From: Gemmatimonadaceae bacterium
GTDB taxonomy: Bacteria > Gemmatimonadota > Gemmatimonadetes > Gemmatimonadales > Gemmatimonadaceae
Direction of reading: 5' to 3'
Length of the DNA stretch: 64,000 nt
Assembly: GCA_011525845.1 (NCBI GenBank)
Contig: WYBP01000018.1
Coordinates: 186,001 to 250,000 of the forward strand
A program made the position numbers and the translations under genes. Below the pieces are notes generated by a model, which saw only the letters and a program-made list of their open reading frames with translations, had not been told where the DNA came from and ran no database searches. This document shows positions 21,646-26,104 of the stretch, piece after piece (within the stretch, counting starts at the first letter, position 1; the number at the start of each line of letters is the position of its first letter).

Positions 21646-23264
21646 TGAGTGACCGCAGGGATTTCCTCCGGACCACCGGAGCCGCGGCGGCGGCCATCGC
21701 GCTCGCGTCGGCACCACGGCGCGCGTCGGCGGCCCCCGCCTACGAGGACCTCGACCGCTTCCAGAGCGGCGCCTCGAAGGAACTCCTCCTCGAGGCGATC
21801 AACGCGGCGAAGATGGGGGGCGCCTCCTACGCCGACTGCCGCATCGCCCGCTTCCGGCAGAACTTCGTCGTCACGCGCGAGCAGCAGATCATCAACGTGG
21901 TCGACACCGACACGCTGGGCTGCGGCGTCCGCGCGCTCGTGGACGGGTGCTGGGGCTTCGCCGCCACCCGGGACCTCACCCGCGCGGCGGTGACCGGCGC
22001 CGCCCGGGAGGCCGTGGCGATCGCCAAGGCCAACCGCGTCGCGCGCGACCGTGCGATCACCCTCGCGCCCACGCAGGCCTACCCGAACGCCACCTGGAAG
22101 TCCGCCTTCACCACCGACCCGTTCGAGGTGCCGCTGGAGCAGAAGGTGGACCTCCTGCTCAAGGCCAACGCCGAGGCGATGAAGGTGCCGAAGGTGAAGT
22201 TCGTGAACTCGATCCTCTTCTTCGTGAAGCAGGAACGGCAGTTCGCGAGCACGGAGGGATCGGTGATCGACCAGACCTTCGTGCGCTCCTGGCCCCTCTT
22301 CACGGCGACCGCCGTCGCCGACGACTTCTCCGACTTCCAGAACCGGCAGGGGGTCGAGGCCGCGCCGATGGGGCGCGGGTTCGAGTACGTCCTCTCCGCC
22401 GACCTCCCGGGGAACGCCCGGAAGTGGGCCGAGCAGGCGGCGGAGAAGCTCACCGCCAAGCCGGTGGAGGTCGGGAAGTACGACCTCGTGCTCCATCCGT
22501 CCAACCTCTGGCTCACCATCCACGAGTCCATCGGCCATCCCACCGAGCTCGACCGCGCGCTCGGCTACGAGGCCAACTACGCCGGCACCAGCTTCATCGC
22601 ACCGCCGGACGAGAAGCTCGGCAAGCTGCAGTACGGCAAGCCGCTCATGAACGTCCAGGGGGACCGCTCGCAGGAGGGCGCGCTCGCCACCGTCGGCTAC
22701 GACGACGACGGGGTGAAGCCGGACGAGTTCCTGATCGTGAAGGACGGCATCTTCAACGACTACCAGACCACGCGCGAGCAGGCGCCCTGGCTCGCCGAGT
22801 GGTACGCGAAGCAGGGGAAGCCGGTGCGCTCGCATGGGTGCTCCTACGCGGACAGCTGGGCGAGCGTGGCCTTCCAGCGGATGCCGAACGTCTCCCTCCT
22901 CCCCGCGAACGACGAGGCGACCTGGGACGACCTCATCGCCGGTGTCGACCGCGGGATCGCGATCATCGGGGACGGCTCGTTCTCGATCGACCAGCAGCGC
23001 TACAACGCCCAGTTCGGCGGCCAGGTCTACTACGAGATCCGCGGCGGGAAGGTCGCCGGGATGCTCAAGGACGTCGCGTACCAGATCCGGACGCCGGACT
23101 TCTGGAACTCGATGGACAAGCTGGGTGGGAAGGCGAGCTACGAGCTCGGCGGCTCCTTCTTCGACGGGAAGGGCCAGCCCGGGCAGGTGAACGCCGTCAG
23201 CCACGGGTCGCCGCCGGCGCGCTTCCGGCAGGTGAACGTCATCAACACGGGACGGACGTCATGA
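21645..23264 (+). CDS. TldD-family metalloprotease with Tat signal, copy 2
   Basis: A 539-residue paralog of copy 1 with the same length. Its twin-arginine signal is SDRRDFLRTTGAAAAAIALA, cleaved near ASAAP. The zinc motif is HESIGH in LTIHESIGHPTELDR. Long identical stretches with copy 1 occur around the motif and the C-terminus (IAIIGDGSFSIDQQRYNAQF), while the substrate-facing N-terminal half diverges. The start overlaps the pmbA-1 stop as TGATG and its own stop overlaps pmbA-2 as ATGA. This suggests a whole-pair duplication, giving two exported proteases with different specificities. Confidence 0.9.
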   Translation: MSDRRDFLRTTGAAAAAIALASAPRRASAAPAYEDLDRFQSGASKELLLEAINAAKMGGASYADCRIARFRQNFVVTREQQIINVVDTDTLGCGVRALVDGCWGFAATRDLTRAAVTGAAREAVAIAKANRVARDRAITLAPTQAYPNATWKSAFTTDPFEVPLEQKVDLLLKANAEAMKVPKVKFVNSILFFVKQERQFASTEGSVIDQTFVRSWPLFTATAVADDFSDFQNRQGVEAAPMGRGFEYVLSADLPGNARKWAEQAAEKLTAKPVEVGKYDLVLHPSNLWLTIHESIGHPTELDRALGYEANYAGTSFIAPPDEKLGKLQYGKPLMNVQGDRSQEGALATVGYDDDGVKPDEFLIVKDGIFNDYQTTREQAPWLAEWYAKQGKPVRSHGCSYADSWASVAFQRMPNVSLLPANDEATWDDLIAGVDRGIAIIGDGSFSIDQQRYNAQFGGQVYYEIRGGKVAGMLKDVAYQIRTPDFWNSMDKLGGKASYELGGSFFDGKGQPGQVNAVSHGSPPARFRQVNVINTGRTS

Positions 23265-24637
23265 CCCCCCTCAAGAGCCTCGCGCAGGGCGTCCCCGCCG
23301 GCGCGATCCTGACGCGGGATCAGGCGCAGGCCATCGCCGAGCGCGTGGTGAAGATGTCCAAGGCGGACGCGATCAACGTCACGCTCGGGACCAACTACAA
23401 CACCAACGTCCGCTTCGCGGACAACCAGATGAGCACCGCGGGGTCGGTGGTGGATGCCGGGGTCGCGGTGCAGAGCTCGTTCGGGCCGAAGCACGCCGTG
23501 GTGACCACGAACGACCTCTCGGAGGCCTCGCTGCGGCGCTGCGTGGAGCAGTCGGAGGTGCTGGCGCGGCTCGCGCCGGACGACCCGGAGGCGATGCCCG
23601 AGCTCGACCCGCAGCAGTACGCGCGGGTCGACGCGTACTTCGATTCGACCGCCGCCGTCGACGCCGCGACGCGCGCCCAGGCGGCGCTCACGGCGCTCGC
23701 GCCCGCGCGGAAGGCGGGGGACATCAAGACCGCCGGGTTCCTGATCGCCGGCGCCGGATGCAACGCGATCGCCAACCAGAAGGGGCTCTTCGCCTATCAC
23801 CGCTCCACGAGCGTGAACTACACGCTCACGGTGCGCACCACGGATGGCACCGGCTCCGGCTGGGCGGGCGCGGACCATCCCGACTGGCGGCAGATCGACT
23901 TCGAGAAGGTCTCGGCGCGCGCCATCGACAAGGCGCGGCGTTCGATGAAGCCGGTCGCGATCGAGCCGGGGCGCTACACCGTGATCTTCGAGCCGCAGGC
24001 GGTCGGCGACCTCGCGCAGCTCGTCGCGTTCTACGCCGACGCGCGCCAGGCGGACGAGGGACGGTCGCCCTTCTCGAAGCAGGGCGGCGGTAACAAAGTG
24101 GGTGAGAAGATCGTCGATTCCCGGGTGACGATGTACTCGGATCCCTCGGACCCGCAGTTGCTCGCGCAGCCGTTCGACGGCGAGGGGATGCCGATCGCGC
24201 GCCAGGTGTGGGTCGAGAACGGCGAGTTGAAGCAGCTGCAGTACTCGCGGTTCTGGGCGAAGAAGCAGGGGAAGGCGCCGACCGGCGGTACGACGTCGCT
24301 CAAGATGACCGGTGGTTCGGCGACGATGGAGGAGATGATCCGGTCGACCGAACGCGGGATCCTGGTGACCCGCTTGTGGTACCTGCGCGAAGTCGATCCA
24401 CGTACTATCCTTTATACGGGATTGACACGCGACGGAACTTTCCTTATTGAACAGGGGAGAATTTCGCGAGCAATTTCGAATTTGCGGTTCAACGAGTCAC
24501 CGCTGTTCATGTTGAACAACCTCGAGATGCTCGGTCCGAGTGAGCGGTTGGCAGGGACGGAGGCCGGCGGATCGGTAGCCATGCCGGCGATCAAGGTTCG
24601 CGATTTCAACTTTACCAGCCTCTCTGAGGCTGTCTAG
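23261..24637 (+). CDS. PmbA/TldE-family partner protein, copy 2
   Basis: A 458-residue PmbA/TldE paralog without a signal peptide or metal motif, starting at ATG 23261 within the stop of tldD-2 (ATGA). Family signatures are as in copy 1 (ERGILVTRLWYLREVDPRT, GLTRDGTFLIEQGRI). The last roughly 230 bases are strikingly AT-richer than the rest: 24421-24480 has 27 G/C in 60. Copy 1 is GC-rich at the same place although the protein is nearly the same. That stretch contains a near-consensus promoter for the next gene, which may explain the relaxed codon choice. Confidence 0.9.
   Translation: MTPLKSLAQGVPAGAILTRDQAQAIAERVVKMSKADAINVTLGTNYNTNVRFADNQMSTAGSVVDAGVAVQSSFGPKHAVVTTNDLSEASLRRCVEQSEVLARLAPDDPEAMPELDPQQYARVDAYFDSTAAVDAATRAQAALTALAPARKAGDIKTAGFLIAGAGCNAIANQKGLFAYHRSTSVNYTLTVRTTDGTGSGWAGADHPDWRQIDFEKVSARAIDKARRSMKPVAIEPGRYTVIFEPQAVGDLAQLVAFYADARQADEGRSPFSKQGGGNKVGEKIVDSRVTMYSDPSDPQLLAQPFDGEGMPIARQVWVENGELKQLQYSRFWAKKQGKAPTGGTTSLKMTGGSATMEEMIRSTERGILVTRLWYLREVDPRTILYTGLTRDGTFLIEQGRISRAISNLRFNESPLFMLNNLEMLGPSERLAGTEAGGSVAMPAIKVRDFNFTSLSEAV
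24422..24450 (+). promoter_or_regulatory. Strong sigma-70-type promoter inside pmbA-2
   Basis: TTGACA at 24422-24427, a 17-base spacer and TATTGA at 24445-24450. The -35 is a perfect match to the consensus. It lies in the AT-rich 3' end of the upstream gene, about 275 bases before the small basic peptide gene, the only plausible target. Confidence 0.6.
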
Positions 24638-24638
24638 G

Positions 24639-24690
24639 ATGCGGGAGACTTAGAGCTTCCGCATGACCCACCGATCCACCGGGGGATCGG
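24639..24690 (+). promoter_or_regulatory. Two leader hairpins before the small peptide gene
   Basis: First hairpin: ATGCGGGAG (24639-24647) against CTTCCGCAT (24656-24664), with one G-U pair. Second: CCGATCC (24671-24677) against GGATCGG (24684-24690). Neither has a T-run; they could stabilise the transcript or act as an attenuator or processing site. Confidence 0.4.
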
Positions 24691-24725
24691 CCGGGATGAC
24701 CCCCTCCTTTCAAGGAGATAGTACA

Positions 24726-24791
24726 ATGGCTGCCAAGAAGAAGAAGGCCGCGAAGAAGGCGACCAAGAAGAAGGCCGCGAAGAAGAAGTAG
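24726..24791 (+). CDS. 21-residue Lys/Ala-rich basic peptide
   Basis: A tiny gene encoding a peptide made almost only of lysine and alanine (MAAKKKKAAKKAT, then KKKAAKKK): 12 Lys, 7 Ala, one Thr and the start Met. The ribosome site AAGGAG (24712-24717) is perfect with an 8-base spacer, a near-consensus promoter lies upstream, and a 16-bp terminator hairpin follows 20 bases downstream. These signals argue for a real and abundant product. The composition resembles the C-terminal domain of histone H1 and H1-like bacterial proteins, and the tail of the NYN protein at 7.8-8.0 kb. It probably binds nucleic acid or another polyanion. No family is recognised; its length makes a search difficult. Confidence 0.75.
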   Translation: MAAKKKKAAKKATKKKAAKKK

Positions 24792-24810
24792 TCAGCGGTT
24801 CTGCTTCACA

Positions 24811-24851
24811 CACAAAGGGATCGGCGCTCGCGCCGGTCCCTTTGTGGTTTT
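24811..24851 (+). terminator. Intrinsic terminator of the small peptide gene
   Basis: CACAAAGGGA (24811-24820) pairs perfectly with TCCCTTTGTG (24837-24846). The inner CGGCG/CGCCG pairs round a CTCG loop, and one G-U lies between. TTTT follows at 24848-24851. This is the best terminator in the window. Confidence 0.92.
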
Positions 24852-24880
24852 CGCGCCCGGTGGTGTTCCGCGCGCCCGGG

Positions 24881-24948
24881 GATGGGAGAAACAAGAAGGG
24901 GCGCCCGCACGGGCGCCCCCCTCACATCTCCCACCTCACATCTGCCGT
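24881..24948. repeat. Palindromic intergenic element, copy 2
   Basis: On the minus strand this begins CGGCAGATGTGAGGTGGGAG just after the small gene at 24959, passes through a GC hairpin, and ends in the short inverted arm CTCCCATC (24881-24888). The left arm is truncated compared with the other copies. Confidence 0.75.
24898..24919 (-). terminator. Hairpin terminator within repeat copy 2
   Basis: GGGGCGCCC and its complement pair perfectly (9 bp, tetraloop). On the minus strand the stem is followed by TTCTTGTTTC, so it should end transcription of the gene at 24959-25120. Confidence 0.75.
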
Positions 24949-25324: not shown

Positions 25325-26104
25325 TTACATCAGCGACTTCTTCGCCATGAAGGTGCGCGTCGCGCCGGGCTCCGGCACGAGGGAGATCTCCCAGCCGTCG
25401 TAGCGCGTCCGGAGCTCATCCTCGGTGAGCACCGCCTGCCCGGCGACGAGCGTCTCGATCAGGTGCACGCCCCCATCGGTCGTCGCCTTCTGGAGGAGCC
25501 GGAAGACCTGCTCGCGCTCGAACGCGGAGAGCCCGGCGAAGGCGGCGGGCGTGCAGACGACGGCGGCGAGCGGACCATCCGGCGTGAAGCTCACGAGGTC
25601 CGAGGCGAAGCCGCGGAGCTTCTCCGTGAGCCCCGCGTCACGCGCGGCCCGCAGCACCCGGTTCACCACCGCCGCCTCCGGCTCGATCGCCGTCACCTCG
25701 CAGCCGTTCGCCGCGAGGTAGAGCGCGGAGCCCTCCACGCGCGCCCCCGCCACGAGCACCGACGCGTCCGACCGGTGCGCGGGGATCGCCTGCGCGAGCG
25801 GTGTGTCCGGGCGCAGGCCCCAGTGCTCCGGCCTCCGCAGCTCGTTCGCCGTCTTCAGCCGGAGGCGCCGCCAGGTCTGGTAGCTCGGCAACCGCAGGCG
25901 CTTCGCGATGATCCGGTCCACCTCGTCCGCGAGCAGCACCTCGCGCATCCCCAGCTGCGCCCCCTCGTCGAGCGCGCGCGCCGCCTCGGTCGCGATGCTG
26001 TGCAGGAAGCTCGTGGAGACCGAGTTCTTGTAGTCCTCGACCTCGCGCTCCACGTGCTGCTGGTACTCGTGTCGCAGGGATCTGGGCGACTGGCGGTTGG
26101 CCAT
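25325..26104 (-). CDS. Class I SAM-methyltransferase-like protein
   Basis: A 259-residue protein whose middle (residues 115-215) has the Rossmann pattern of class I methyltransferases: VLVAGARVEGSALYLAANGC for motif I, then TAIEPEAAVVNRVL with the acidic residue that holds the ribose, and LAAVVCTPAAFAGL in the motif IV position. The usual catalytic residues are not obvious, so it may be degenerate or act on an unknown small molecule. The N-terminal 110 residues are helical and charged, with no known domain. It is a single gene, divergent from fpg. Confidence 0.6.
   Translation of the reverse strand: MANRQSPRSLRHEYQQHVEREVEDYKNSVSTSFLHSIATEAARALDEGAQLGMREVLLADEVDRIIAKRLRLPSYQTWRRLRLKTANELRRPEHWGLRPDTPLAQAIPAHRSDASVLVAGARVEGSALYLAANGCEVTAIEPEAAVVNRVLRAARDAGLTEKLRGFASDLVSFTPDGPLAAVVCTPAAFAGLSAFEREQVFRLLQKATTDGGVHLIETLVAGQAVLTEDELRTRYDGWEISLVPEPGATRTFMAKKSLM

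Follow-up and report, generated by a model that had tools for sequence, protein, structure and literature searches.

The window analysed here is a stretch of 64,000 nucleotides from a Gemmatimonadaceae genome (contig WYBP01000018.1). Between tldE/pmbA and a convergent methyltransferase-like gene it contains an open reading frame that runs from an ATG at 24726 to a TAG stop at 24789-24791. The predicted peptide, MAAKKKKAAKKATKKKAAKKK, uses M, A, K and T only, with 12 lysines and 7 alanines among its 21 residues, exactly as a sequence-only reading of the window had described it; the ribosome site assigned to the frame by that reading is likewise present as AAGGAG. The frame is preceded by two hairpins and followed by an intrinsic terminator (Table 1). 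The product of the convergent neighbour has no Pfam match and only a weak, TehB-like NCBIfam match, and a strong GC inverted repeat at 24896-24921 is probably the terminator of this neighbour.

Table 1. Features of the peptide gene and its surroundings (positions in the window)
Feature	Position	Strand	Basis
tldE/pmbA, upstream neighbour hosting the probable promoter	23261-24637	+	PmbA_TldD_3rd, 1.1e-44
-35 element TTGACA of the probable promoter, inside tldE	24422-24427	+	GC3 drop, conserved codons, comparison with genome G010
-10 element TATTGA, 17-nt spacer	24445-24450	+	same comparison; CTTATTGAACAGGGAAGAA kept in G010 pseudogene
Variable upstream hairpin, between tldE stop and leader	24639-24664	+	covaries within the genus
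Leader hairpin, CCC-A-CCGATCC-ACCGGG-GGATCGG-CC-GGG: outer stem CCC/GGG, 1x2 internal loop, 7-bp stem CCGATCC/GGATCGG, loop ACCGGG (24678-24683)	24667-24695	+	covariation
Palindrome CTCCTTTCAAGGAG, able to pair with the Shine-Dalgarno sequence	24704-24717	+	CTCC/GGAG comparison
Shine-Dalgarno sequence AAGGAG	24712-24717	+	direct reading
Open reading frame, 21 residues, MAAKKKKAAKKATKKKAAKKK	24726-24791	+	reading frame and stop codon conserved; indel lengths multiples of three
Intrinsic terminator, 16-bp stem and T run	24811-24851	+	fold; comparison of orthologues
Methyltransferase-like protein, convergent downstream neighbour	25325-26104	-	adjacent to the peptide gene at about 30 of 40 family loci

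The complete unit of frame, Shine-Dalgarno sequence and terminator is kept in 14 of 17 congeneric genomes, in agreement with the earlier expectation of a conserved ATG-to-terminator unit in relatives. In a fifteenth congener (G016) the unit is present, truncated where the contig ends, and the two genomes in which it was not found (G002 and G007) are 71% and 77% complete. The DNA matches to the unit reach E values of 1e-38 to 1e-149, and its conservation is far beyond chance. Failure of the frame or the Shine-Dalgarno sequence to persist in close relatives had been named as the result that would speak against the gene; both are conserved, and the proposal withstood this test. Insertions and deletions in the frame occur among congeners in multiples of three only, and substitutions are almost all synonymous. 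Within the copies of 21 residues, five of the six variable codons differ synonymously only, the sixth giving rise to A8V. The second codon is always GCT, and the stop alternates between TAG and TAA. The position after pmbA, also part of the earlier proposal, holds for most congeners but not for several relatives, in which the upstream neighbour is the formate dehydrogenase gene fdhA. Five genomes have no adjacent tldE (G001, G004, G009, G012 and G013); there the match begins just 5′ of the leader hairpin, and the unit is therefore conserved apart from its tldE neighbour.

Across the Gemmatimonadaceae, a syntenic, H1-like frame rich in K, R, A and G and 14-137 residues in length is found in about 35 genera, with the leader hairpin in nearly all of them. 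The order tldE or fdhA, peptide gene, convergent methyltransferase-like gene and fpg recurs in about 30 genera. A model of the leader together with the ORF start matched 117 of 148 family genomes (31 of 35 genera), and a covariance model of the leader alone matched 149 of the 288 genomes of the order, about 145 of them in the Gemmatimonadaceae with four weak exceptions, at about one match per family genome. All of the 17 held-out family leader matches precede a basic ORF rich in K, R, A, G, S and T. Three weak matches, L216-L218, which lie beyond the family or have E values far above 0.01, are followed by no basic ORF and were set aside. When 84,980 bacterial and archaeal species genomes were searched with an exact pattern (cap, Shine-Dalgarno sequence, MAxKK), 53 loci were retrieved, 51 labelled as Gemmatimonads and two isolated and chance-like. 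In a sister family, f3, the gene has a related hairpin bearing an ACT-type loop, and in another family, f2, a basic small ORF lies near 7 of 25 methyltransferase-like loci, without the ACCGGG leader.

The Shine-Dalgarno sequence is found in all correctly read orthologues, for which K and R together make up 33-67% of residues and the remainder is mostly A, G, S and T; in L107, L110 and L124 an ATG overlaps the Shine-Dalgarno sequence, and both figures refer to the correctly read set. The orthologues show the composition of H1-like proteins, being rich in Lys and Ala, with charge spread evenly and no globular domain, but fall short of the usual length of about 150-240 residues. Neither the 21-residue peptide nor orthologues of 105 and 102 residues match a Pfam family, and their NCBIfam matches lie far below the cut-offs; composition is therefore the basis of the H1-like label. 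The histone H1-like character that had been ascribed to the peptide is borne out, since its positional orthologues include proteins of 50-137 residues rich in K, A and R. The 21-residue gene is a shrunken form of a histone-H1-like gene. Lys/Ala repeats along the chain, and strain-dependent length through loss or gain of repeats, have been described for Hc2 of Chlamydia and BpH1 of Bordetella (PMC2848022). The family shares with these the Lys/Ala-rich chain and the variable length. It differs in size (about 149-237 residues in Hc2 and BpH1), in lacking a Pfam match and in belonging to a different phylum. The peptide is thus an extreme member of an already known kind, and what is new is the elasticity of its length.

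The leader hairpin ends about 35 nt before the start codon, upstream of the Shine-Dalgarno sequence, and the distance from loop to start is nearly constant. Compensatory changes (72 cells) affect each of the 11 modelled pairs across 49 family sequences, and the covariation score of 0.432 compares with 0.151 in shuffles (0 of 500) and is lost when the partner strand is slid. The loop ACCGGG is almost invariant in these sequences while the stems covary, and RNAalifold recovers the same stem unprompted. The element fits the general description of a cis-regulatory RNA, namely a covarying conserved fold upstream of one type of gene. The variable hairpin further upstream has 9 pairs, with 100% of cells paired in 9 congeners and 11 compensatory cells. 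No gathering-level Rfam match exists in the window region or in 18 related loci; the matches obtained at lax thresholds are chance-like and below threshold. Literature searches for the peptide gene or the leader RNA returned nothing. The leader RNA is new and absent from Rfam. The only other close match to the hairpin in the source genome lies inside a coding gene and is attributed to chance. A pairing of a leader arm with the terminator, considered on account of GGGATCGG in both, fails in other genera. Closer to the start codon, CTCC lies just 5′ of the Shine-Dalgarno GGAG, with which it could pair, in 34 of 52 orthologues examined; this hairpin is not universal, and the palindrome is lost in G010 and G014.

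Downstream of the stop, the terminator stem is formed by CACAAAGGGATCGGCG-CTCG-CGCCGGTCCCTTTGTG with a short T tail. A strong stem with a T tail follows the stop in 31 of 39 orthologues versus 0 of 39 shuffled sequences, and the transcript 24630-24860 folds 3.7 sd better than dinucleotide shuffles. The sequence-only reading had credited the gene with the best promoter and terminator in the window. As regards the terminator, the stem and its tail stand, but the T run is short and the element is not listed in a consensus scan of 16-34 kb. As regards the promoter, the claim finds no support, the same scan showing no plus-strand promoter near the ORF. Comparison of genomes, by which alone it is recognised, places a probable promoter within the 3′ end of tldE/pmbA, 280-300 nt upstream of the ORF. 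GC3 of tldE in the source genome is 0.83-1.00 over most of the gene and 0.60-0.77 over the last 100 codons; near the promoter hexamers it drops from about 0.97 to 0.43-0.70, with codons kept in 9 congeners. The block PRTILYTGLTRDGTFLIEQG, which includes TTGACA-17-TATTGA (24422-24450), has a GC3 of 0.43 and high codon identity in nine congeners. A sharp GC3 fall at the 3′ end of tldE (24341-24637) marks the embedded regulatory region. The tldE copy adjoining the peptide gene in G010 is a decayed pseudogene that carries an in-frame stop and numerous changes but retains GGGATTGACACGCGAC...CTTATTGAACAGGGAAGAA; another tldE copy of this genome, just upstream of the pseudogene, is intact (L010 1200-1450; L047 3086-4846). 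Congeners devoid of tldE carry TTGACA-16/17-TATGAA or TATTCA shortly 5′ of the leader hairpin. In most other genera no consensus promoter is detectable, a sigma-70 scan performing no better than on shuffles. The tldE-internal promoter, the covarying leader, the variable length of the coding part and the fdhA neighbour of several relatives had no place in the sequence-only reading.

A second gene in the same genomes has a similar Shine-Dalgarno sequence and the same MAAKKKKAAKK start, which continues into a SWIB/MDM2 domain (PF02201, 2.2e-26). The SWIB/MDM2 protein Wcw_0377 of Waddlia binds genome-wide (PMC6426960). The Gemmatimonadaceae paralogue shares its Shine-Dalgarno core and tail with the window gene, from which the SWIB domain is missing, leaving the tail only. 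SWIB/MDM2 genes with H1-like N-terminal tails (L219-L248) occur in 54 of 59 family genomes, and G015 has three SWIB matches. The 313-409 'paralogue' DNA matches, considered as second copies of the peptide gene, are actually the N-terminal tail of the SWIB-domain gene. In genus g24 the leader-only model also matches the SWIB gene in several genomes, and the SWIB leaders of g1 and g44 bear an ACCGGG hairpin. A leader common to all SWIB genes was rejected, the hairpin being convincing only in g1, g24 and g44. Because the SWIB leaders of most other genera are without the hairpin, a regulon shared by the peptide gene and the SWIB gene is at most suggested by these sequences.

ORF, leader, Shine-Dalgarno sequence, terminator and synteny are conserved, and the leader covaries. 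As judged from these patterns and from composition, the product of the gene is probably an H1-like polycationic tail that stands alone and coats nucleic acid, the leader setting the stability or translation of the mRNA. The peptide would be produced in quantity and would act as a non-specific coat, either nucleoid-associated or RNA-binding. Its length may be free to drift between 14 and 137 residues because, as we propose, only charge density matters. Selection would then act on dose, holding the promoter, the ACCGGG-loop hairpin, the Shine-Dalgarno sequence and the terminator in place. The leader would function as a cis-acting RNA element that tunes mRNA stability or ribosome access, in most genera a weak CTCC/GGAG hairpin would enclose the Shine-Dalgarno sequence, and a trans factor, which may be the basic protein itself, another protein or a small RNA, would most likely bind the loop. 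A conserved unit behind a folded leader suggests that the amount of a DNA- or RNA-coating protein is tightly controlled.

It is conceivable, if unlikely, that the transcript itself is the main product, a dual-function or regulatory RNA that acts in trans via the ACCGGG loop, with the ORF secondary or degenerating. The coding length, as short as 14-15 residues in G364 and G367, is less well conserved than the leader and the terminator; the orthologues L199 and L200 encode 15 and 14 residues (MAAKKKAKKKAKKK) with leader and Shine-Dalgarno sequence intact, and a product of 14 residues might be vestigial, the RNA being left as the functional part. With its self-complementary CCGG core, the loop could engage another RNA in a kissing interaction, and the better-than-shuffled fold of the transcript fits as well. 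Against this stand the basic ORF and Shine-Dalgarno sequence at near-constant distance from the loop in every orthologue, the prevalence of synonymous changes and indels in threes among congeners, and the existence of orthologues of up to 137 residues.

That the polycation binds ribosomes or some other RNA machine instead of the nucleoid appears rather improbable. Its composition would fit RNA as well as DNA, and autoregulated RNA-binding proteins typically have a hairpin in their own leader. The tail in common with a SWIB/MDM2 chromatin-type protein favours DNA, and a defined ribosomal protein would not be expected to drift so far in length. Similarly improbable is a function of the hairpin as a DNA operator, an inverted repeat recognised by a dimeric transcription factor. 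Although the repeat is perfect and near the promoter in congeners without tldE, its arms vary freely in sequence but remain complementary in two stems parted by an asymmetric 1x2 loop, sequence conservation is confined to the loop, and in tldE-linked genomes the promoter is about 220 nt upstream. A cationic peptide that is secreted or acts on membranes, as an antimicrobial or type I toxin, would likewise be short and cationic with its own promoter and terminator, but is very improbable for a single-copy gene that is syntenic across the family, has long H1-like orthologues and encodes neither a signal peptide nor a hydrophobic or amphipathic segment, and the link to the envelope raised earlier finds no support.

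For the nucleic acid-coating tail with a regulatory leader, a known precedent of control comes from Chlamydia, where HctA (Hc1) and DdbA are small basic proteins whose mRNAs are both under post-transcriptional control by the small RNA IhtA (PMC4355289, PMC8343073). The systems would have in common small basic proteins and post-transcriptional control, here predicted, and IhtA serves two basic-protein mRNAs. IhtA pairs around the start codon of hctA, in contrast to the cis-encoded hairpin with an invariant loop found here. The structured leaders of autoregulated basic RNA-binding proteins, such as ribosomal proteins, also place a hairpin just 5′ of the Shine-Dalgarno sequence, at a nearly constant spacing; unlike those, the leader of the window gene matches no Rfam family. 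More tentatively, and with doubt prevailing, the leader may represent a new class of RNA, with ACCGGG hexaloop and two-part stem, that senses a histone-like polycation, directly or via a trans factor, and thereby sets translation of its own mRNA in the Gemmatimonadaceae, the protein having eroded to 14-21 residues in some lineages. If this were true, the form of 14-21 residues would be, to our knowledge, the smallest free-standing histone-like protein.

Both the leader and the peptide would probably escape automatic annotation. In a phylum whose RNA biology is little known, the leader adds a strongly covarying, previously uncatalogued RNA. The bacterial H1-like gene downstream of it has fixed control elements and a coding part that spans a tenfold range of lengths, with a minimum of 14 residues; this range offers a clear test of whether charge alone, and not sequence or fold, is selected.
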